NCBI RefSeq assembly: GCF_039822205.1
Contig: NZ_JBAGBW010000011.1
Location: forward strand, 1-64,000
Direction of reading: 5' to 3'
Source of the DNA: Thermodesulfobium sp. 4217-1
GTDB taxonomy: Bacteria > Thermodesulfobiota > Thermodesulfobiia > Thermodesulfobiales > Thermodesulfobiaceae
DNA length: 64,000 bases
Numbering within the stretch: position 1 is the stretch's first letter; the number at the start of each line of letters is the position of its first letter. The position numbers were made by a program, and so were the translations under genes. The notes under the pieces are model-generated. The model was not told the DNA's origin and made no database searches. It saw nothing but the letters and a program-made list of their open reading frames with translations. This document shows positions 1,354-49,816 of this stretch, piece by piece.

Positions 1354-1746
1354 TTTATCCTCCTTTGGACTTTTGTAAATTAAAACGCTCATCTAAAAGG
1401 CTAAAACCAAAAAGTACATATACATAATAATACAAATTATTGTATTATTACAAATTTTTGTATTATGTATATATTTTTAAAAATGACCAAATAATTTGTT
1501 CTTAATCTCATTGAAGCATTATAAATGTCACTTGTTGTATGTCAATAAAAATTTTTCTTATAATTTATTTTTCTATAAATTATATATATTGTATTCTCTT
1601 TTGTATAAAAGGTGTAAAGTCAAAAGCTATGAAATATAGTTTTTAAGAGTATTGTAGGCTATACTTAGTAATATTTGAAAAGTTTTATATAATGAGTTAA
1701 AATTATATCAGATATAAATTATTTATATATTTATAGATTGGGGCTA
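1354..1746. other. AT-rich intergenic region with inverted repeats
   Basis: About 390 bases separate the chemoreceptor from the divergent pseudouridine synthase gene. The sequence is extremely AT-rich and has no credible open frame. The only clear structure is a cluster of TTGTATTAT-like motifs and their complements at 1420-1470, annotated separately. Promoters for both divergent genes must lie here, but no -35/-10 pair stands out from the AT background. Confidence 0.6.
1420..1470. promoter_or_regulatory. Nested inverted repeats upstream of the chemoreceptor gene
   Basis: AATACAA-ATTA-TTGTATT (1429-1446) is a perfect 7-bp-arm inverted repeat. It overlaps TTGTA-TTAT-TACAA (1440-1453), and a further TTGTATTAT follows at 1459-1466. 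The whole is enclosed by ATACATAAT (1420-1428) and ATTATGTAT (1462-1470). The array sits 67-117 bases upstream of the chemoreceptor start. Overlapping operator-like half-sites are the simplest reading; an AT-rich hairpin in DNA or RNA is the alternative. No regulator is assigned. Confidence 0.4.
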
Positions 1747-2499
1747 ATGACAATTAATAATTTAATGCGTATAAATAGATTTTTGAGTTTTTCGGGCATC
1801 ACTTCCAGAAGGAAGGCAGAGGCTCTTATTTTGTCTGGAAGGGTAGAGGTGAACGGAAGCGTTGTTGTAGACCTATCACATAGAATTGATCCACAAAATG
1901 ATATCGTAAAAATAGATGGAAAGCTAATAGCAGTTAAAGAAAATATGCATTACTTGCTTTTCTACAAACCAAGATGGGTTTTGACGGCTCTTGGAAAAGA
2001 TCCAAGTGGTTTAGATACTCTGGATAAGTATTTCAAAGATTTTAGCGTGAGGCTATTTCCCGCTGGCAGGTTAGACTTTGATTCAGAGGGGCTAATTCTG
2101 ATGACAGACGACGGCGAATTTGCACACAAAATACACCATCCATCTTTTAAGGTTGTCAAAAAATATCAAATTTTGGTTACCCCGGTGTTTGACATATCTC
2201 TTAAAGAGAAGGTGCTTTCAGGATGCAGTCTGGCAGGCAAATTTGTTAAACCTGACAGCTTTAAGGTTCTTAAAGATTTACCCGATTCGTCCTGGCTTGA
2301 AATAGGTTTTCATGAGGGTATGAAGCATTTGGTGAAAGAATATCTCAAAAAAATGGGCTACAGCGTCAAGAGGTTAATTAGGGTTGCTATTGGGGACCTT
2401 AGATTTGGTGGAACTTCAGGCTCATATAAGTGGTTAACTGATGAAGAGGTAAATAATTTCAAAAGAAAATATTTTGGTGATAAAAATGGAAAATCTTAA
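1747..2499 (+). CDS. rRNA pseudouridine synthase, RsuA/RluB/RluE/RluF family
   Basis: Converts a specific rRNA uridine to pseudouridine. An N-terminal S4 RNA-binding domain (RINRFLSFSGITSRRKAE) is followed by the catalytic domain. The family motif GRLDFDSEGLILMTDDG carries the catalytic aspartate, Asp110 counted from base 1747. The total of about 250 residues is normal for RluB-type enzymes. The start is uncertain: ATG 1747 has a GGGG three bases upstream, TTG 1738 is nine bases earlier, and ATG 1765 gives the usual family N-terminus beginning at the S4 domain. The target base (16S or 23S) cannot be told from sequence alone. The 3' end overlaps the TusA-like gene by 14 bases. Confidence 0.9.
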   Translation: MTINNLMRINRFLSFSGITSRRKAEALILSGRVEVNGSVVVDLSHRIDPQNDIVKIDGKLIAVKENMHYLLFYKPRWVLTALGKDPSGLDTLDKYFKDFSVRLFPAGRLDFDSEGLILMTDDGEFAHKIHHPSFKVVKKYQILVTPVFDISLKEKVLSGCSLAGKFVKPDSFKVLKDLPDSSWLEIGFHEGMKHLVKEYLKKMGYSVKRLIRVAIGDLRFGGTSGSYKWLTDEEVNNFKRKYFGDKNGKS

Positions 2500-2767
2500 A
2501 TTTTTAAATCCACTAAAGGTCAATAAAACTATTGATATAGTTTATCTTATGTGTCCTATGCACATTGTCTCAATTAAAAAGGCATTAAAAGAGTTAAAAG
2601 ATGGAGAAATTCTTGAGGTGTTGAGCGACTTTTCTCATGCGCTTGAAGACATCCCAAATTGGTGTAAGATGTCGGGTCATGAATTTCTGGGGATTATCGA
2701 AGGGGATGACTATTTGAAATTCTACATTAAGAAATGTCAGGAAGAAATACCCAATGGTTTATCTTGA
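2486..2767 (+). CDS. TusA/SirA-like sulfur-carrier family protein
   Basis: A 93-residue protein with the TusA fold signature: a Cys-Pro motif at the start of the first helix (Cys23-Pro24-Met-His26), then KKALKELKDGEILEVLSD, a DIP motif with a second cysteine (Cys60), and a final hydrophobic strand. In classical TusA the motif is CPxP; here the last proline is histidine. TusA-type proteins carry persulfide sulfur from cysteine desulfurases to thiolation or molybdenum-enzyme maturation. The ATG at 2486 has GGTGA five bases upstream; a TTG at 2474 is possible but less likely. The gene overlaps its neighbours by 14 bases on each side, including the NifS-like gene downstream, so the two products probably act together. 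Confidence 0.8.
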   Translation: MENLKFLNPLKVNKTIDIVYLMCPMHIVSIKKALKELKDGEILEVLSDFSHALEDIPNWCKMSGHEFLGIIEGDDYLKFYIKKCQEEIPNGLS

Positions 2768-3878
2768 TTACTACTCTACTTCTCCATTGGAAGAAAAAGT
2801 TTTCGAGGCAATGTGCCCATTTTTGAAGGAGAGATTCTACAATCCCCTTTCTAAAAACAAAATGGGAGTCTTAATAAAGGAAGAGATTGAAGTTGCCAGG
2901 TCAAAAGTAGCTAATCTTATAAATGCAAATAATGATGAAATTATATTTACGTCATCTGGCACAGAGTCAAACAACGCTATTATTAAAGGTCTTTCTTTCG
3001 CTTATAAGAAAAATGGTAAACACATAATTACTTCAAAATCAGAACACCATTCAGTGTTAAACCCATTGAGGAGTTTGGAAAGAATTGGTTTTTATGTTAC
3101 ATTTTTATCGCCTGATAAATATGGTGAAATCAAGCCATCCTATGTCGAGAGCGCTCTAAGAGAAGATACCATGCTTGTTTCGATTAACTTTGGTTCTGTT
3201 GACGTGGGCACTATAAACAATATAAAAGAAATCTCAAAAATTTTGAGAAGTAAAGATGTACTGTTTCACATTGACGCTGTTGCGGCAGTTGGAAATATTC
3301 ACGTGGACGTAAAAGAATTGGGGGTAGATTCTCTTTCTTTTAGCTCGCACATTTTTGGTGGGCCAAAAGGAGTAGGCGGTTTCTATCTTAAAGATGGGCT
3401 AAGATTTATGCCACTGATCTATGGTGGTCCTCAAGAGTTTGGCAAGAGGGCTGGTACAGAAAATGTGGCAGGGATAGTGGGCACAGGCGTGGCTGCCGAA
3501 TTGGCAATGCTAAATCTTGATAATAGAATTAAAAAAAGAAATAAAGCAATAGATGAGATTAAAAATATATTTTCTTTTGATGGGATAGAGATGGTTGGCA
3601 AAGATCTTGAAAGGCTGCCAGGGCATCTTTCTTTTATAATAGATGGGATAAAAAGCGAAAGTATGATTGCCTATCTTGAAGAAAATGACATATACGTTTC
3701 AAGCGGTTCACCATGTGTTTCTTATGCATTGAAGGCTTCGCCAGTTCTTATTAGTATGGGTTATTCTTTTGAACAGGCATCAAGCGTGATAACTCTTTCT
3801 ACCAGCCACAAAACCACAGAAGATGAAATAGGATTTTTCCTTGATATTTTTGGTAAAGCTCTTGCGAAGTTAAGGTAG
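2754..3878 (+). CDS. NifS/IscS-like protein lacking the PLP-binding lysine
   Basis: A 374-residue class V aminotransferase-fold protein, clearly of the cysteine desulfurase family: TSSGTESNN, SEHHSVL (His98), HIDAVAAVG (Asp174), GGPKGVG, and SSGSPC with the persulfide cysteine at Cys321. The position that binds PLP in active enzymes (SxHK) reads Ser-Ser-His199-Ile200, encoded CAC ATT. Other cofactor and substrate contacts also differ: NNEIG is SVDVG (148-152), the DAxQ glutamine is Ala177, and the IRxSLG arginine region is ITLSTS. Length and frame are intact, so it looks like a maintained pseudoenzyme that may keep a persulfide-handling cysteine. Activity as a desulfurase is doubtful. It ends five bases from the convergent Rrf2 gene. 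Confidence 0.85.
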   Translation: MVYLDYYSTSPLEEKVFEAMCPFLKERFYNPLSKNKMGVLIKEEIEVARSKVANLINANNDEIIFTSSGTESNNAIIKGLSFAYKKNGKHIITSKSEHHSVLNPLRSLERIGFYVTFLSPDKYGEIKPSYVESALREDTMLVSINFGSVDVGTINNIKEISKILRSKDVLFHIDAVAAVGNIHVDVKELGVDSLSFSSHIFGGPKGVGGFYLKDGLRFMPLIYGGPQEFGKRAGTENVAGIVGTGVAAELAMLNLDNRIKKRNKAIDEIKNIFSFDGIEMVGKDLERLPGHLSFIIDGIKSESMIAYLEENDIYVSSGSPCVSYALKASPVLISMGYSFEQASSVITLSTSHKTTEDEIGFFLDIFGKALAKLR

Positions 3879-3882
3879 GAGG

Positions 3883-4308
3883 TTATTTACAGAGCTTCTT
3901 ACAATTTTTTTTTACAAGGTCGTTAAGGGTTAACTTTTCCAAAAAAGAATTTACCTGATTTCCAATCTTCTGCCAAAGTGCCCTGGTAAGGCAATCTTCA
4001 GCTCTGTGACACTTCCCTGGATCTGCAGAACACTCTGTAATCAGCACAGGACCCTCAAGTATTTCTATGATATCCTTCAAGATAATCTTCTTCGGATCCT
4101 TATTTAGCTTGTATCCACCGCCAGGACCCTTAAAGCTCTCGACTATATCGTGATGCTTTAAGACATTTAGTACCTGCTCAAGGTAAGAGAGGGATATCTC
4201 CTGATCCTTAGCAAGCAAATGAGCTGGCACAGTATAGCCCTTTTTCGCCTGTGCAAGCTGGCATAAAGCTCTTAATCCATATCTTGTTTTAGTTGAAAGT
4301 TTAAACAT
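3883..4308 (-). CDS. Rrf2 family transcriptional regulator (IscR/CymR-like)
   Basis: A 141-residue winged-helix regulator. The N-terminal helix-turn-helix begins KLSTKTRYGLRAL, the wing has FKGPGGGYKL, and three cysteines (93, 100, 106) lie in the loop where IscR binds its Fe-S cluster. Rrf2 proteins sense Fe-S status, cysteine, nitric oxide or redox state and usually repress sulfur or Fe-S genes. It is convergent with the TusA/NifS-like pair, which suggests but does not prove a sulfur-related role. The ATG at 4308-4306 lies next to a short AT-rich leader containing a perfect inverted repeat (4339-4356). Confidence 0.9.
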   Translation of the reverse strand: MFKLSTKTRYGLRALCQLAQAKKGYTVPAHLLAKDQEISLSYLEQVLNVLKHHDIVESFKGPGGGYKLNKDPKKIILKDIIEILEGPVLITECSADPGKCHRAEDCLTRALWQKIGNQVNSFLEKLTLNDLVKKNCKKLCK

Positions 4309-4515: not shown

Positions 4516-4544
4516 TTGACAATCGTTAATAAATATGTTATAAT
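4516..4544 (+). promoter_or_regulatory. Sigma70-type promoter of the transposase gene
   Basis: TTGACA (4516-4521) and TATAAT (4539-4544) are both consensus and separated by 17 bp. An AAGGAGG ribosome site at 4554-4560 is placed 8 bases before the ATG. Such a perfect promoter is unusual for an insertion sequence, which normally limits its own transposase. Confidence 0.85.
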
Positions 4545-20320: not shown

Positions 20321-21553
20321 TTGTTGGTTGTAAAAAAATTCGGAGGCACTTCTGTTGGCAGTCCCGATAGGGTAAAACACGTTGCAAATCTGATCAGTAG
20401 GGCCGTAAAGAGCGGCGATAGGGTAGCGGTAGTAGTTTCTGCTATGGGTGATTCCACTGATCATCTTGTATCTCTTGCAGACAAGATTACAAAGAACCCG
20501 TCACCAAGAGAATTGGACGTTTTGCTCTCTACTGGAGAGCAGGTTTCTATTGCTATAATGGTTATGGCACTTAACGAGATAGGCATAGATGCTGTATCTT
20601 TTACTGGTTGGCAGGCAAATATAAAGACAACTTGTTTGCATGAAAAAGCGAGGATTTTATCTATTGATCCAGAGTTGTTGGAACAAGTCTTGGATGAAGG
20701 GAAAGTGCCTGTAATTGCAGGTTTTCAAGGAGTTGCTGATGACAATTCTATAACTACTCTTGGAAGAGGCGGTTCCGATACAACTGCGGTGGCTATCGCT
20801 GCAGCGATAAAAGCAGATTTGTGTGAAATATATACCGATGTAAAGGGAGTTTATACCACAGATCCCAGGGTTGTAGAAGATGCCAGACAGATAATGACAG
20901 TTACTTATGATGAGATGATGGAGCTTGCTCTCTTAGGCGCAAAGGTTCTGCACCCTCGGTCAGTCGAGCTTGCTAAACACTATGGCGTTGTTTTAAGGGT
21001 TCTTTCAAGCTTTTATGATTGTCCTGGTACAGACGTTAGGGAGGTTGTTGAAATGGAAAATAGAAATGTTGTTACAGGGATTGCTTTTGATGAGGATGTC
21101 GCAAAGGTGGGGATAATTAAAGTTCCAGATAGACCTGGGATTGCATATAAAATCTTTGGCACCCTTTCTGAAGAAAATATAAATGTAGATGTTATAGTCC
21201 AGTCAATTTCACCCGATACAAATTTTACCGAAATGGCATTTACCCTATCTCTGAAAGATTTGCCTAAGGCTCTAAGCATCTTGAAAGTTGTTTCTGAAGA
21301 AATAGGTGCTCAGGGTATTATTTATGACGATAAAGTTGCAAAGGTTTCTGTGGTTGGTGCAGGTATGGGGGATAGGCCTGGAGTGGCAGCTACAATGTTC
21401 AAGGCTTTGTCAGAAGTAGACATCAACCTTCAGATGGTTTCTACATCTGAGATAAAGGTGTCTTGTATAATTGCAAGGGAAGATGTAAAAAAGGCAGTTC
21501 GATCCATTCACAAGGCTTTTAGTCTTGAAAAGGAGGGTTACTCTTGTGGTTAG
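20321..21553 (+). CDS. lysC: Aspartate kinase
   Basis: A 410-residue aspartokinase catalysing the first step to lysine, threonine and methionine. The kinase domain opens with VVKKFGGTSVG and contains LLSTGEQVS, TLGRGGSDTTAVA and YTDVKGVYTTDPR. Two C-terminal ACT domains (about residues 265-410) indicate feedback control by lysine and/or threonine. TTG 20321 is preferred: GGAGGTGG ends eight bases upstream, whereas the earlier TTG at 20303 lies in that ribosome site. It overlaps the next gene by eight bases. Confidence 0.96.
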   Translation: MLVVKKFGGTSVGSPDRVKHVANLISRAVKSGDRVAVVVSAMGDSTDHLVSLADKITKNPSPRELDVLLSTGEQVSIAIMVMALNEIGIDAVSFTGWQANIKTTCLHEKARILSIDPELLEQVLDEGKVPVIAGFQGVADDNSITTLGRGGSDTTAVAIAAAIKADLCEIYTDVKGVYTTDPRVVEDARQIMTVTYDEMMELALLGAKVLHPRSVELAKHYGVVLRVLSSFYDCPGTDVREVVEMENRNVVTGIAFDEDVAKVGIIKVPDRPGIAYKIFGTLSEENINVDVIVQSISPDTNFTEMAFTLSLKDLPKALSILKVVSEEIGAQGIIYDDKVAKVSVVGAGMGDRPGVAATMFKALSEVDINLQMVSTSEIKVSCIIAREDVKKAVRSIHKAFSLEKEGYSCG

Positions 21554-22700
21554 AACTATAGACGAGATCAATGAAAAGATAGAAAGAGACGAGGTGGTGG
21601 TTCTAACAGCGAAAGAAGCTTATGACCTGGTTAAGGAAGAAGGCGTCAAAAAGGCTGCTTCCAAGGTAGATGTGGTAACTACTGGCACCTTCGGTGCTAT
21701 GTGTTCTTCGGGTGTTTTTTTGAACTTTGGCCACACCGAACCCCCCTTGAAGATGGATACAGTGATGTTAAACTCAGTGCCTGCGTATGGTTATATCGCA
21801 GCAGTTGATGCGTATCTTGGCGCTACAGCAAGGTCTTCAGAAAATTTCGAGTATGGCGGTGCACACGTAATTGAAGATCTTTTGTCAGGAAAGAGAGTAA
21901 GGCTGGAGGCTACAGGTACAGGGACAGACTGTTATCCTAAAAAGGACATTGATACAAAGATAACTCTTGACCAGATAAATGAAGCAATAATGTTTAATCC
22001 AAGAAATTGCTATCAAAATTATGCTGCGGCAACTAACTCTTCTGATACGAGACTTTATACCTATATGGGCGCGCTTTTGCCTAAATATGGAAATGTCAAT
22101 TATGCCACATGTGGCTTGTGGTCTCCTATGCTCAAAGATCCAGAGTACAGAACAATTGGTATAGGCACAAGGATATTTTTTGGTGGATCAATAGGCTATG
22201 TGGCATGGCATGGTACTCAACACAATTCATCAAAACCAAGAGATGAAAATAATCTGCCTATTGGACCTGCGGGAACGCTTGCGCTAATCGGAGATTTAAA
22301 ATCAATGAACAAAAGATACGTTCGCGGCGCATATTTTGAGGGTTATGGAATATCATTGATGATGGGTATAGGCATACCTATACCTGTAATAGACGAAGAC
22401 ATGATGCACCAATTGTCTCTTGGAAATGAAGACATAAAGACAGTAGTAGTTGACTACTCTGTTGCATCACGTTCAAGGCCGATTGTTAGGGAGGTAAATT
22501 ATCAGGAACTAAGAAGCGGTTTTATTGAGATCCATGGCAAAAAAGTTCCCACAGGCTCCACTTCTTCATGGGCATTAGCTAAGGAAATTGCTACTAATCT
22601 GAAAGAAATGATAGTAGAGAAAAAGTTTTTGTTAAGCGAACCGGTAGAGCTTCTTCCGAAAGATAAAATTGTCAGGCCATTGGAGGTAAGGAGAAGATGA
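21546..22700 (+). CDS. Homocysteine synthesis protein, DUF39 family (HcyS-A/MA1821 type)
   Basis: A 384-residue DUF39 protein. Family landmarks are TGTFGAMCSSGVFLNFGHTEPP (Cys53), the GAHVIEDLLSG and TGTGTDCYPKKD segments, and IGIGTRIFFGGSIGYVAWHGT. In Methanosarcina this protein and a ferredoxin-like partner make homocysteine from aspartate semialdehyde and sulfide, bypassing O-acylhomoserine. Its location between aspartokinase and that partner fits the pathway. GTG 21546 is the chosen start, eight bases after AGGAGGG. Confidence 0.93.
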   Translation: MVRTIDEINEKIERDEVVVLTAKEAYDLVKEEGVKKAASKVDVVTTGTFGAMCSSGVFLNFGHTEPPLKMDTVMLNSVPAYGYIAAVDAYLGATARSSENFEYGGAHVIEDLLSGKRVRLEATGTGTDCYPKKDIDTKITLDQINEAIMFNPRNCYQNYAAATNSSDTRLYTYMGALLPKYGNVNYATCGLWSPMLKDPEYRTIGIGTRIFFGGSIGYVAWHGTQHNSSKPRDENNLPIGPAGTLALIGDLKSMNKRYVRGAYFEGYGISLMMGIGIPIPVIDEDMMHQLSLGNEDIKTVVVDYSVASRSRPIVREVNYQELRSGFIEIHGKKVPTGSTSSWALAKEIATNLKEMIVEKKFLLSEPVELLPKDKIVRPLEVRRR

Positions 22701-24403: not shown

Positions 24404-26284
24404 ATGCGAGATTTTATATTAGGAACTGCTGGACATATAGATCACGGTAAAACTGAATTGATTGCTAGGCTTACTGGCAGAAGAACAGAGCGCTTTCCTG
24501 AAGAGAAAAGTCGAGGCATGACTATTGACATCGGTTTTTCCAGCTTAAAGCTGCCCTCGGGAAAGATATTGGGTATTGTGGACGTTCCGGGACACGAAAG
24601 GTTTGTTGAAAACATGCTTGTTGGCTCTGCCGGTGTCGATCTTGCTCTTCTGGTAGTATCAGCCGATGAGGGGATAAAAGAGCAGACAAGAGAACACTTT
24701 GAGATACTTAGACTTTTAGAAATTAAAGACGGTCTGGTTGTTATTACGAAGAAAGATTTAGTTGAAGACGATTTGTTGGAATATCTGAAAGAAGAGATAA
24801 AAGACTTTGTCAAGGGGAGCTTTTTAGAAAATAAGCCTATAATTTGTGTTTCTTCAATAAATGGCGAGGGGTTCAATGAAATAATAGATGTTTTAAACGA
24901 TGAGGTAGAGAAGCTTTATTCAAAGCGCTATGACGATGACAAGAAACCTTTCAGACTCTTTATCGATAGAAAGTTCAAGATAAAGGGCTTTGGTCTTGTG
25001 CTTACGGGCACTGTGTATTCTGGAAAGGTTAGAGTTGGCGACACTCTTGAAATACTGCCATTTAAGGATGCTGTTAGGGTAAAAAATCTTGAGAGCCACT
25101 TTTCCAAAGTTCAAGAAGGGCATACAGGCATGAGGTTGGCTGTAAATGTTAATACTGCCCTGGATGAAAATTTTATAATGAGAGGCAGAGTGCTTGTTGA
25201 GAAAAACTATTATTTAGAATCCACAAAACTTGTGGGTTCTTTAAACGTTTTAAGCTCTTATGGATCTTTAAAGAACAACAAGAGAGCACATCTTTATATA
25301 GGATCGTCATCAAGCGTGTGCAGAATATCTTTTAATGAAGATGCGTCTGATGATAAAAATTCATACATTATAAAGATTGCTTGCCAGACTCCAATCTGTG
25401 CTGTCAGAGGCGATAAATTTATTTTAAGAGATCCTTCGGTAAAAAAGACGCTTGGTGGAGGCACTATACTAGACACCGAGCCTGCCAAATTAAGAGATCT
25501 GTCAACTTACCTAAGAGATAAATCGACTATTGATAATGGAGATCTGAAGTCTAATATTGCCCAGATTATAGAAAGAAAGGGTATTATAGAACTCTCTGAC
25601 ATATCTAAGAAAACAAGCTATAACGCTGACTATATTAAAGAATCTGTTACTAATGGAAATTTTAATATATTTGAGAATGAAGGGAAAATGTATTTTTTTA
25701 GTTCTGATTATCAGAAAGTCTTATTTGGAAAATTGGAAAACATTATTTTAGACATAGAGTCCAAAAATCCATATCAAACTCAGATTCCTAAGGAAGAGAT
25801 ATTGAAAAAATTAGACTCTCCGATTTCTCAGAACATTATAGACATGTTTGCCAGGCAAAAAGGATATTTAGACGATAAGACGTTTTTGCTGAAAGAAAGG
25901 GTTTCTGACAAGGTTTTGTCTTTGGTTGACAAAGTTGAAGAAGAAATTAAAAATTTGGGTTTTTCTGTTCTTCCAATTGACGAGATAAGTTTAAAATATA
26001 AAGATAAAAAAGCTTTTAACAATGCTATAGCATCTTTAAAAAGATCTCAGAAAGTCATACAGGTGTCTATCTCTCCAGAGATATATATACACTTCTCAAG
26101 TTTGGAAATTCTAACCAACTTATTAAGAGATTTTTTTGAAAGCAAGAGCGATCTTAGTGTTTTGGAATTTAAGGATCTCACGAAAACTACAAGAAAATTT
26201 TCTATTCCCCTTTTGGAATTTTGTGACAAACAATTTCTTACAAAAAGAGTGGGAAATATTAGACAGAATGGGAAAAAATTATAA
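24404..26284 (+). CDS. selB: Selenocysteine-specific elongation factor SelB
   Basis: A 626-residue GTPase that brings Sec-tRNA to UGA codons with a downstream SECIS hairpin. The G-motifs are GHIDHGKT (10-17), DVPGHE and TKKD; EF-Tu-like domains II and III follow, and then about 250 residues of winged-helix repeats that bind SECIS RNA. It starts a tight run selB-tatC-mobA/fdhD-tatA, with tatC beginning at the next base after its stop. Confidence 0.97.
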   Translation: MRDFILGTAGHIDHGKTELIARLTGRRTERFPEEKSRGMTIDIGFSSLKLPSGKILGIVDVPGHERFVENMLVGSAGVDLALLVVSADEGIKEQTREHFEILRLLEIKDGLVVITKKDLVEDDLLEYLKEEIKDFVKGSFLENKPIICVSSINGEGFNEIIDVLNDEVEKLYSKRYDDDKKPFRLFIDRKFKIKGFGLVLTGTVYSGKVRVGDTLEILPFKDAVRVKNLESHFSKVQEGHTGMRLAVNVNTALDENFIMRGRVLVEKNYYLESTKLVGSLNVLSSYGSLKNNKRAHLYIGSSSSVCRISFNEDASDDKNSYIIKIACQTPICAVRGDKFILRDPSVKKTLGGGTILDTEPAKLRDLSTYLRDKSTIDNGDLKSNIAQIIERKGIIELSDISKKTSYNADYIKESVTNGNFNIFENEGKMYFFSSDYQKVLFGKLENIILDIESKNPYQTQIPKEEILKKLDSPISQNIIDMFARQKGYLDDKTFLLKERVSDKVLSLVDKVEEEIKNLGFSVLPIDEISLKYKDKKAFNNAIASLKRSQKVIQVSISPEIYIHFSSLEILTNLLRDFFESKSDLSVLEFKDLTKTTRKFSIPLLEFCDKQFLTKRVGNIRQNGKKL

Positions 26285-46085: not shown

Positions 46086-47120
46086 TTATAGACCCTTATC
46101 GCTTATGAAATTGTAAAAGGCATCCCTCTCGGAGCTTTCAAATCCAGCAGATCTTATAAGGCTCTCAAGCTCTTCTGTACTCTGAGGTCTATGAATTTTC
46201 TCTATTGCTGATGCTACCACGTTTTCTTCAAGCATCACAGAGCCCATATCATTTGCACCACAGAGAAGTGCCACTGGTGCTACATCCTTTCCTACTGTGA
46301 GCCAGGATGCGCCTATATTGGGTATGTTGTCAAAAAATATCCTTGATAGGGCAACTGTTTTTAAATAATCTATTTTATTTTCCCAAATTTTATTGCTTTT
46401 TGATTTGAATATCCATGGAATAAAGGCTATAAAACCGCCTGTTTCGTCTTGCAGGTCTCTTACCTTTTTAAAGTGTTCCAACCTATCGTCAATTGTTTCT
46501 CCAAAACCTATTACCATAGTAGCTGTGCTCATCAAGCCTGAATAGTGTGCAATTCTGTGAATATGTATCCATGTGGCGGATGAGATCTTTTTTGGGCTAA
46601 TGGATTCTCTAATTTTATCTACCAATATTTCTGCTCCTGCTCCAGGAAGCCCCTGCAAACCCGCCTCTTTTAATATTTCTATTACTTCCTTATAAGAGAT
46701 TCTCTCAATTTTTGAAAAGTGATCTATCTCTGCAGCAGATAACGAATGGAGCACTATTTTAGGATATTTTTCTTTAATATGCTTAAATATTTCTTCTATA
46801 TCTTTAAGTCTAAACTCTGGATCGAGACCGCCCTGTAGCATAATTTGCGTTGCTTTGAGCGCTACTGCCTCATCTACTCGCTTATATATTTCTTCCTTAG
46901 ATAGCCTAATGGGGTTTTTGCTTTCTACTGGCACACTGAAATAACAAAATTTACAATTGGACGTGCAAACGTTACTGTAATTTATGTTTCTATCTATGAT
47001 ATAGGTTACCTTTTTGAGTCCAAATTCTGCCCTTGTTTGATCGGCCAACTTTGCAAGTTCAAATAATGGCAAGTCAAAAAGTTTCTTTGCTTCATTTATA
47101 TTTACTCTCTTTTTTATCAT
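46086..47120 (-). CDS. mqnC: Cyclic dehypoxanthinyl futalosine synthase MqnC
   Basis: A 344-residue radical SAM enzyme of the futalosine menaquinone pathway that cyclises dehypoxanthine futalosine. The cluster motif CTSNCKFCYF binds 4Fe-4S; IMLQGGLDP, LPGAGAEILVD and TWIHIHRIAHYSG are family landmarks. ATG 47120 follows AGAGGTG; an in-frame TTG lies 21 bases upstream. Last gene of the tetR-mqnDEAC set. Confidence 0.95.
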   Translation of the reverse strand: MIKKRVNINEAKKLFDLPLFELAKLADQTRAEFGLKKVTYIIDRNINYSNVCTSNCKFCYFSVPVESKNPIRLSKEEIYKRVDEAVALKATQIMLQGGLDPEFRLKDIEEIFKHIKEKYPKIVLHSLSAAEIDHFSKIERISYKEVIEILKEAGLQGLPGAGAEILVDKIRESISPKKISSATWIHIHRIAHYSGLMSTATMVIGFGETIDDRLEHFKKVRDLQDETGGFIAFIPWIFKSKSNKIWENKIDYLKTVALSRIFFDNIPNIGASWLTVGKDVAPVALLCGANDMGSVMLEENVVASAIEKIHRPQSTEELESLIRSAGFESSERDAFYNFISDKGL

Positions 47121-47216
47121 AAACACCTCTTGAAAATACAAAATTATTTAAGTGCCTTATTGTAACAAATAATCTGTTAAGAGTTTATTAGACACGCAGC
47201 GTTTCAATAATTAAAT

Positions 47217-47951
47217 TTAGTTTTTTATTAACCTTTCAAGTTCAAATAATCCTTTTAAATCGTCTGTGTCAAGGATATATGACATATTTGTGTAGTATTC
47301 TTTAGAAGAAGTGTTTTTATAATTCCAGTTCAAATTATTATTTTCATCCTCAGCATATCTTACTGCCAGCGAATAGGTCCTTATGAAATCCAATAACAGA
47401 TCGTTTTTGATATCCTTTCTTGCTGCGAGCAGAGAAAAAACAGTTGGCAAATTTGTGTGTTTTTTCCATAGCTCAGATACGTCATAAACAAATCTGTCGC
47501 TTTTTTTCTCCATAAAACTTAAGGCTTCATCTCCTATAATTATTTCTGCAGAGAAATTGTTTTCACCTTTTGAGAATATCGGCTCGATGTTATAAAATTT
47601 TCTAATGATGCACATTACTATATTATTAATAGTGTTTGAGGTATTTGATAATCTAATTATTTTTTTGTCAAGCTTCTCTATTGGTTCATTTGAAACGAGA
47701 AATGTGCTCAATACTGGCCCATAGCATGACAGCCCGAAGGGCAAAATTGGCCTTAACAAATCCTGATTTTTAATCCATGTCGCGGAAGAAATGGTTGCAA
47801 CATCAAGCTCATTTTTTACCAGCATATCGTTTAACGTGGCTGGATCTGACAGGAAAAGCTTGTATCCAATTTTTTCAAAACCAAGCCTAATTGGTAAAAA
47901 ATTATGAAATTTAATTAAACCAAACCTTAAAAGTTCATTATTATTTGCCAT
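47217..47951 (-). CDS. mqnA: Chorismate dehydratase MqnA
   Basis: About 244 residues with a type 2 periplasmic-binding fold. It converts chorismate to 3-enolpyruvylbenzoate, the entry to the futalosine pathway. The start FGLIKFHNFLPIRLGF, the SSATWIKN serine segment, GEEA-like IIGDEAL and YDVSELWKKHTNLPTVF match the family. ATG 47951 is preferred, six bases after GGGAG; ATG 47963 overlaps that site. It lies between mqnE and mqnC. Confidence 0.92.
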   Translation of the reverse strand: MANNNELLRFGLIKFHNFLPIRLGFEKIGYKLFLSDPATLNDMLVKNELDVATISSATWIKNQDLLRPILPFGLSCYGPVLSTFLVSNEPIEKLDKKIIRLSNTSNTINNIVMCIIRKFYNIEPIFSKGENNFSAEIIIGDEALSFMEKKSDRFVYDVSELWKKHTNLPTVFSLLAARKDIKNDLLLDFIRTYSLAVRYAEDENNNLNWNYKNTSSKEYYTNMSYILDTDDLKGLFELERLIKN

Positions 47952-47991
47952 TATGTCTCCCATTTATTTTTTCCTGATATCGTAAGATAAT

Positions 47992-48999
47992 TTATTGCAT
48001 TTTTTCGTAGAGAGAATTTCTTTCGTATGGCACTAAGCCAATATCATTGATCATTTTTTTTAGACTTTCATCTGAAAGCCCGCCTGGCTCTGGCGAGCCG
48101 CCTTCGTGCATAATCTTTTCGTCTACCAGAGTCCCTTCAAGGTCGTCTGCCCCAGCCCAAAGGGCCATAAGCGAGCAGTCTTGTCCTATGGAGGGCCAAT
48201 ATGCCTTTATGTGTGGGATAGATAGAACCAAACGAGATATTGCGATGGTTTGAAGAGTTTTAATGCTCGTTGCTGGGCTCAGATGTTGAAATTTGGTATT
48301 TAAAGGTTGAAATTTTAACGGGATGAATGCCTGGAATCCAGCAGTTTTTTGTTGTAAGTTTTCTATCAAGTTAAGGTGATCTAATATGTCGTCAAATGTC
48401 TCAAAGTGACCATATAGCATTGTGGCGTTTGACTTTAGACCGAGCTTGTGGGCGGCTTCATGAATTTTTAGCCACATTTCAGGAGATGTCTTCTTTGTAA
48501 GGAGCTTTGTTCTCATATCGTTTTTTAATATTTCGGCTCCGCCACCAGTGAGAGATACGCTCCCGTGCTTTAATAGATCTTCAATTATTTCTTCAATCGA
48601 CATATCCTCTTCTTTTGCATAAAATTCAATTTCAACTGCTGTTAGAGATTTTATTGTAACGTGAGGCAATGTCTTTTTAATAGAATCCAAAATTTGAAGG
48701 ACCTCGCTCCATTTTAGATCTGGATTTAGGCCAGAAGTAATGTGAACTTCGCTTAGCCATTGTAGATTTGCGAGTTTTGAGGCAACGAGTTCGGGGGTAA
48801 GTTTATAGACATCCAAGTCATTTTTGTTCCTTGCAAATGGACAAAACCCACATTTTTCAACGCAAATGTTGGTAAGATTTAAATGAATATTTTTTGCAAA
48901 GAAAACGTTTTTGCCAAACAAGGAAGACTTCTTTTTGTTTGCCTCGTTGAAAAGGTCTATCGGCTTGTTTAGAAGTTCTTTTATTGCTGAACTATTCAT
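47992..48999 (-). CDS. mqnE: Aminofutalosine synthase MqnE
   Basis: A 335-residue radical SAM enzyme that joins 3-enolpyruvylbenzoate to SAM-derived adenosine, giving aminofutalosine. CVEKCGFCPF is the cluster motif; VHITSGLNPDLKW, LTGGGAEIL, and the C-terminal GGSPEPGGLS are typical. It overlaps mqnD by eight bases. Its presence with mqnC shows the aminofutalosine variant; the step of MqnB/MTAN is not encoded here. Confidence 0.95.
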   Translation of the reverse strand: MNSSAIKELLNKPIDLFNEANKKKSSLFGKNVFFAKNIHLNLTNICVEKCGFCPFARNKNDLDVYKLTPELVASKLANLQWLSEVHITSGLNPDLKWSEVLQILDSIKKTLPHVTIKSLTAVEIEFYAKEEDMSIEEIIEDLLKHGSVSLTGGGAEILKNDMRTKLLTKKTSPEMWLKIHEAAHKLGLKSNATMLYGHFETFDDILDHLNLIENLQQKTAGFQAFIPLKFQPLNTKFQHLSPATSIKTLQTIAISRLVLSIPHIKAYWPSIGQDCSLMALWAGADDLEGTLVDEKIMHEGGSPEPGGLSDESLKKMINDIGLVPYERNSLYEKMQ

Positions 49000-49816
49000 T
49001 TAATATGTCCTCTGGTATGTTCGGGATAGATGGAATTAGAGATTTTTCATATGCAAGTTTGTACAGTACATTTAAAGATTTATATAAGCTCTCCTGAAAT
49101 TTTATCGTAAAGTCATTGACATACATGTTTACGAATTTTTCACCCATTTCAAGATCTAAGTCTCTGCCGTACTTCATAGCGTGACCAAGAGCTTCGTCAA
49201 GATTTGATTTGCCCCATTTGATAGATTCTCTTAATAGATTATTTATTTCGCGGCTCTCTTTTTTCAAACTTTTGTGAAGTATGTTTCCACCTAAAGGAAG
49301 GGGCAAGCTGTGTTTTTCATACCACCACTCTCCAAGGTCTACCACCTTTTCTAAGCCCATATTTTTGTAAGAGAGCTGCCCCTCGTGAATTAGCAATCCT
49401 GCATCCACCTCTGAATTCATAACTTTTTCCATTATCTGATCAAAAGGAACGAATACCTCTTTGTGATTTTGTGAATATATGCGAAAGACTAAGGTCGCTG
49501 TGGTTAGCTCTCCAGGGAGAGCAATTACCTTGTTCTCAAGAGTTGATAAGGGCTTTTTGGAAATGAGTATTGGACCGTATTTGTCTCCTACACTCGAACC
49601 CACGCTCATAAGATCATATTTGTCCGTAACGTATGGCAGAGCATGATAAGAGATTGCACTAATGTGATACTTGCCATTTTTTGCCTCTTTGTTTAGGGTT
49701 TCTATGTCTGACAGGGTTTCTTCCAATTCATAATTTGACGAAATTTTCCCATGAGTCCATGCATAAAACATAAATGCATCATCTGGGTCTGGGCTGTGCG
49801 CAACTGTTAATTTCAT
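48992..49816 (-). CDS. mqnD: 1,4-dihydroxy-6-naphthoate synthase MqnD
   Basis: A 274-residue periplasmic-binding-fold enzyme making 1,4-dihydroxy-6-naphthoate. VAHSPDPDDAFMFYAW at the N-terminus is diagnostic, followed by ISAISYHALPYV, GSSVGDKYGPILIS and LIHEGQLSY. A TCCTCC-complement ribosome site (AGGAGGAT) precedes the ATG. It is 23 bases downstream of tetR. Confidence 0.96.
   Translation of the reverse strand: MKLTVAHSPDPDDAFMFYAWTHGKISSNYELEETLSDIETLNKEAKNGKYHISAISYHALPYVTDKYDLMSVGSSVGDKYGPILISKKPLSTLENKVIALPGELTTATLVFRIYSQNHKEVFVPFDQIMEKVMNSEVDAGLLIHEGQLSYKNMGLEKVVDLGEWWYEKHSLPLPLGGNILHKSLKKESREINNLLRESIKWGKSNLDEALGHAMKYGRDLDLEMGEKFVNMYVNDFTIKFQESLYKSLNVLYKLAYEKSLIPSIPNIPEDILNE

Follow-up and report, generated by a model that had tools for sequence, protein, structure and literature searches.

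The tusA-iscS* locus

The window, meaning the whole analyzed stretch of 64,000 nucleotides from Thermodesulfobium sp. 4217-1 (contig NZ_JBAGBW010000011.1, positions 1 to 64,000), carries near its beginning a run of overlapping genes on the forward strand. The run opens with an rluB/rsuA-like pseudouridine synthase gene (1738..2499, start possibly the ATG at 1747; Pfam PseudoU_synth_2 and S4). Its end overlaps by 14 bases a tusA-like gene (2486..2767, forward) that encodes a 93 amino acid protein, and the last 14 bases of tusA overlap in turn the gene called iscS* here (2754..3878, forward), which encodes a 374 amino acid homologue of IscS/NifS lacking the pyridoxal phosphate (PLP) lysine. The TusA (76 bits, cut-off 28.6) and Aminotran_5 (232 bits) Pfam matches of the two proteins are both far above cut-off, and IscS* scores 359.3 bits against the NCBIfam NifS model, under its cut-off of 530.75.

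An Rrf2-family regulator gene (3883..4308, reverse strand; Pfam Rrf2, 129 bits) converges on iscS* and encodes three clustered cysteines (CSADPGKCHRAEDC). A terminator-like hairpin between the two genes (3875..3902, no strand assigned) is a consensus match only and is not above the shuffle mean. No Rfam element was found at the tusA-iscS* locus. Three further genomes of the genus carry the rluB-tusA-iscS*-rrf2 quartet as a group. Between rrf2 and murJ lies a DDE transposase gene (PF01609, 4569-6278), preceded by a perfect TTGACA-17-TATAAT at 4516-4544; since rrf2 adjoins murJ directly in a related genome (L034), the transposase is a recent insertion upstream of rrf2.

Active site and predicted fold of IscS*

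The PLP-lysine motif of IscS* reads SSHI (Ser-Ser-His199-Ile200), with the ATT codon of Ile200 at 3351..3353 (forward) in the position of E. coli K206. Ile200 is present in all four genomes of the genus, and the absence of the lysine, reported in the preliminary description, is therefore a shared trait. The other substitutions reported there also proved correct: SVDVG replaces NNEIG (SV for NN), DAVA replaces DAxQ with A177 at the glutamine position, and ITLST replaces IRxSLG with T347 at the arginine position. Across the genus, the residues equivalent to E. coli N155, Q183, and R354 are V, A, and T/A. The open reading frame 2754-3878 is full length, as had been stated, and it keeps the persulfide cysteine Cys321 (TGT, 3714..3716, forward; E. 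coli C328) within SSGSPC. Sequencing error is ruled out as the source of these changes because three further genomes of the genus carry identical ones.

Pfam, an AlphaFold model, and structure comparison agree that IscS* contains a fold type I, IscS-like chain. The model has a pLDDT of 84, with loop 322-325 below 50, and its closest solved structure is that of Archaeoglobus fulgidus IscS (4hvk), which is itself lysine-less. The predicted IscS fold is intact in this model.

In E. coli IscS, the K206A and Q183E variants have zero desulfurase activity (PMC9978102), which makes the loss of cysteine desulfuration a safe inference for lysine-less proteins of this kind. The altered residues argue strongly that IscS* would be unable to form a PLP Schiff base or to hold the cysteine substrate, and that it would release no sulfur from cysteine. 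No other lysine takes over the PLP role within the motif by alignment, and the lysine of GPKG occurs in active enzymes too. A loop lysine at E. coli position 334 is near-universal in the lysine-less clade, but it is judged an unlikely substitute because it lies on the mobile cysteine loop.

The genus keeps the residues that bind the PLP ring and phosphate (H104, D180, S203, H205, and T243) as well as T76, so weak PLP binding by IscS* may still occur. An alternative explanation builds on this and holds that IscS* still carries PLP or PMP, either with no covalent bond or by way of another lysine such as that at 334, and has a different, lyase-like activity. E. coli K206A, which retains part of its PLP (PMC9978102), agrees with such binding. 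However, S203 and H205 are mostly lost in clade members outside the genus, and both the holder of the substrate carboxylate (R354) and that of the PLP O3' (Q183) are gone, which makes this explanation very unlikely.

A family of lysine-less IscS proteins

Relatives of IscS* were taken as the best 80 from a GTDB-wide search ranked by similarity, which is not a census, and the PLP lysine is absent in all of them. The preliminary description had considered that His-Ile might be conserved in a clade; Ile is fixed in the genus and the lysine loss is clade-wide, but the wider clade mostly carries Gln at this position (approximately 59%), followed by Ser, Ala, Pro, Met, and others. The relatives span Nitrospirota, Desulfobacterota, Chloroflexota, Aminicenantes, Brocadiaceae, and more. 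No bacterial member retains K206; Ala replaces Q183 in 92-95% of the clade, and Val or Leu replaces R354 in 98%, with C328, H104, and D180 kept in 100%. In trees built with the active-site (trait) columns removed, the bacterial lysine-less sequences form one clade (SH-aLRT 98-99) with no lysine-bearing sequence inside. The genus was first placed with an Endomicrobia sequence and, after removal of long branches, within the clade that has TusA upstream (support 91). A single origin of lysine loss for A. fulgidus IscS and the bacterial clade has a tree support of 24. Lysine-less IscS is thus a large and conserved family in bacteria, of which IscS* is one representative. Two divergent lysine-less IscS-like proteins (L032, 1462-2679, with the motif SIER; L028, 1432-2640, with GANG) are possibly separate losses; one of their genes neighbors IscU, and the other is next to Rrf2 and to a gene for a 2-oxoacid oxidoreductase.

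The possibility that iscS* is simply decaying in this lineage was weighed against these data. The stem branch of the genus is long (1.16-1.26 changes per column), and both iscU and the C-terminal tail have been lost there. Nevertheless, iscS* is intact and collinear in four genomes, and its pairwise dN/dS is 0.048 against the nearest genome and 0.06-0.07 against two farther ones, although some synonymous distances approach saturation, which leaves the larger comparisons approximate. Comparable values (0.05-0.07) are obtained for the intact NifS of the genus, and tusA and rrf2 are constrained as strongly. The gene is under purifying selection, and decay has a close to negligible probability. 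A lone decayed copy among lysine-bearing homologues, named at the outset as a contrary finding, does not describe this gene, given its lysine-less relatives and low dN/dS.

A second, intact desulfurase, for which the preliminary description had advised a search, is present in the genome of the window: a NifS gene (G000:C23) that adjoins the only IscU gene. The same holds more widely, as an intact IscS of the NQKCR type (N155, Q183, K206, C328, R354) coexists with the lysine-less one in all 15 sampled lysine-less genomes. Within flanks of approximately 1.5 kb, IscU and TusA both accompany the lysine-less gene in 15 of 15 cases; the intact loci have TusA in none of 15 and IscU in 11. In two Chloroflexota contigs, L065 (2433-4030 and 4992-6570) and L101, the intact and lysine-less genes are a few kilobases apart, and in L065 IscU accompanies the intact copy.

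The TusA partner

The TusA-like protein carries its sulfur cysteine, Cys23, in CPMH rather than CPxP (residues 23-26, codons at 2552..2563, forward). The overlap of a CPMH-bearing partner with the desulfurase-like gene had been noted before; the present data add that CPMH is not a local oddity. In the loci of the best 80 relatives, a TusA located upstream of lysine-less IscS has CPxH in 37 of 37 cases, and one located downstream has CPxP in 31 of 31. The position of E. coli Asp45, a residue that bonds to the TusA cysteine (PMC2854127), is occupied by Phe in the window protein and by Tyr in all 28 aligned CPxH relatives. CPxH copies also share TDYDGALEDIPxW. The other two TusA-type proteins of the host genome have CPGP and CPKP. 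CPxH is a family feature of the TusA dedicated to lysine-less IscS.

Of the TusA-docking residues, IscS* keeps E49 and R55 and has Glu for D52. The two TusA positions whose arginines bind these acids stay basic in the genus (R27 is Lys, R31 is Lys or Arg), so the charge complementarity of the pair holds. Two other E. coli IscS residues that touch TusA, W45 and R237, are changed in IscS*. Overall, these residues suggest that the TusA contact is plausibly kept in the genus.

IscU docking and its loss in the genus

IscU is encoded in cis in 76 of the best 80 relatives and is missing from the genus itself (L044), from L070 and L086, and from L109, where the contig ends. For most of the clade, the lysine-less gene and iscU share an operon that often includes Rrf2 as well. 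Outside the genus, the lysine-less relatives keep E309-G310-E311 and S384-P385 in 100% of cases, positions that belong, in E. coli IscS, to the helices that bind IscU (Shi et al. 2010, PMC2854127). L070 and L086, which have neither IscU nor TusA within 5 kb, also keep the docking tail.

The genus differs at each of these points. EGE is changed to KSE or KSS, the residue before the persulfide cysteine is Pro (Ala327 in E. coli), and the chain ends early (last codons at 3867..3878, forward) at the equivalent of E. coli residue 381, so that the SP-containing IscU-docking helix is absent. No iscU gene was found near iscS* in the genus, and the paired misS-misU arrangement is absent. Judged by these residues, the IscU dock has been shed in this genus.

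These observations bear on a second alternative, in which IscS* acts as a scaffold of the A. fulgidus type, its cysteine ligating a cluster under construction on an IscU that the NifS-IscU locus would provide in trans, with TusA as an accessory. A. fulgidus IscS has Asp, Ala, and Leu at the K206, Q183, and R354 positions, and it is discussed in PMC7585200 as lacking desulfurase activity and as ligating the [2Fe-2S] cluster of IscU with its cysteine. It is also the nearest solved structure to IscS*, and most of the bacterial clade retains both the dock and the cis IscU. In the genus, however, the C-terminal helix and EGE are gone and a proline replaces A327 beside the cysteine. Deletion of residues 376-404 abolishes IscU binding by E. 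coli IscS, and A327V affects it (PMC2854127). Furthermore, the sole IscU of the genome adjoins the intact NifS, and no second IscU able to pair with IscS* was found there. Such a scaffold is therefore unlikely.

A proposed sulfur relay

In the bacterial clade, an operon of lysine-less IscS, CPxH TusA, and in most cases IscU exists in parallel with the normal IscS-IscU pair. The preferred reading, to which we assign a probability of about 0.5, is that non-catalytic IscS* serves in the genus as a TusA-dedicated persulfide dock or relay toward a different acceptor, and that the operon of the wider clade feeds IscU. IscS* retains the fold of IscS and its mobile cysteine loop but would perform no PLP chemistry on cysteine. 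Cys321 would receive from CPxH TusA a sulfane sulfur or persulfide that comes from elsewhere, and IscS* would pass it onward, to IscU for building clusters in the greater part of the clade and to an acceptor other than IscU in the genus.

The core of the preliminary description, a desulfurase-like protein unable to use cysteine that retains its sulfur cysteine beside a carrier, is well supported by the clade-wide change, the purifying selection, the intact paralogue, and the inactive E. coli variants. It missed the large lysine-less family, the usual presence of IscU, and the A. fulgidus precedent.

A regulatory role has also been considered, in which IscS* would hold on to TusA (or to its persulfide state) and signal sulfur status, with the adjacent Rrf2 regulator as a possible recipient. 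Rrf2 is encoded beside lysine-less IscS in 31 of the 80 relatives and in the genus, all Rrf2 copies examined have the three clustered cysteines, and Rrf2 genes near MIS genes have been noted (PMC9973013). However, Rrf2 near Fe-S genes is usually a mere transcriptional regulator, and nothing indicates direct contact, so a sensor function is quite unlikely. Regulation of the locus by its three-cysteine Rrf2 is likely.

The preliminary description had also suggested that sulfur could come directly from sulfide. The host genome contains dsrA well above cut-off, and the host is thus very probably a sulfate reducer living with sulfide. An HcyBio protein (PF01837), of a family that incorporates sulfur into homocysteine, is encoded at 21525-22700 of the window. 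Together, dsrA and HcyBio fit a sulfide-derived sulfur supply but do not demonstrate it. An HcyBio gene also occurs near the lysine-less iscS-iscU operon of L106 (5334-6581). Elsewhere in the window, a SelB elongation factor is encoded at 24404-26284, and the host probably makes selenoproteins; a run at 46086-49816 resembles the futalosine menaquinone pathway (radical-SAM and MqnA/MqnD-like genes), and an MqnD-like gene is found near the lysine-less iscS operon in eight Nitrospirota-type loci.

Sulfide has been argued to be the source of Fe-S sulfur for SMS and methanogens, and we know of no sulfur carrier for such a sulfide-derived supply. A conserved TusA coupled to a dead IscS, in genomes that also encode a live one, is a concrete candidate for a sulfur route in sulfidic anaerobes. 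The broader proposal, a widespread cysteine-independent entry of sulfur in anaerobes in which CPxH TusA loads the dead IscS, which serves IscU or another acceptor in parallel with the normal desulfurase, is tentative, with the odds somewhat against it. The genus represents a natural separation experiment, in which IscU docking was lost and TusA was kept. Many lysine-less IscS proteins probably also bear the annotation of cysteine desulfurase, and metabolic reconstructions that rely on it would be misled.

Comparison with known systems

Garcia et al. reportedly defined the MIS (MisSU) minimal system in 2022. In the open-access papers searched, a set without Garcia et al. 2022, no description was found of a TusA(CPxH)-coupled lysine-less bacterial clade or of a form that does not dock IscU. 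MIS is an IscS-IscU pair described with a cysteine desulfurase (PMC12442378), whereas IscS* is lysine-less and has no IscU in cis.

Lysine-less IscS itself is already known from A. fulgidus and Methanosarcina acetivorans (IscS1), the latter lacking the lysine as IscS* does (PMC7585200). The A. fulgidus protein (4eb5, 4eb7, 4hvk; D199K mutant 4r5f) resembles IscS* in the replaced lysine, Q183 changed to Ala, the loss of R354, and the retained cysteine. They differ at position 354, where the genus has Thr or Ala, A. fulgidus has the hydrophobic Leu, and the other clade members have Val or Leu. In addition, the A. fulgidus protein retains the IscU dock and tail and operates together with IscU, whereas IscS* lacks the dock and is paired with TusA.

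The E. coli IscS-TusA (3lvj) and IscS-IscU (3lvl) complexes share with the window pair the fold, the cysteine loop, the partner proteins, and some docking residues. E. coli pairs a catalytic IscS with TusA (CPEP) as an acceptor; in the window, IscS* is predicted to be inactive, and TusA has CPMH and Phe in place of Asp45. Against the open-access papers searched, the coupling to CPxH TusA and the dock-less form of the genus appear to be new.
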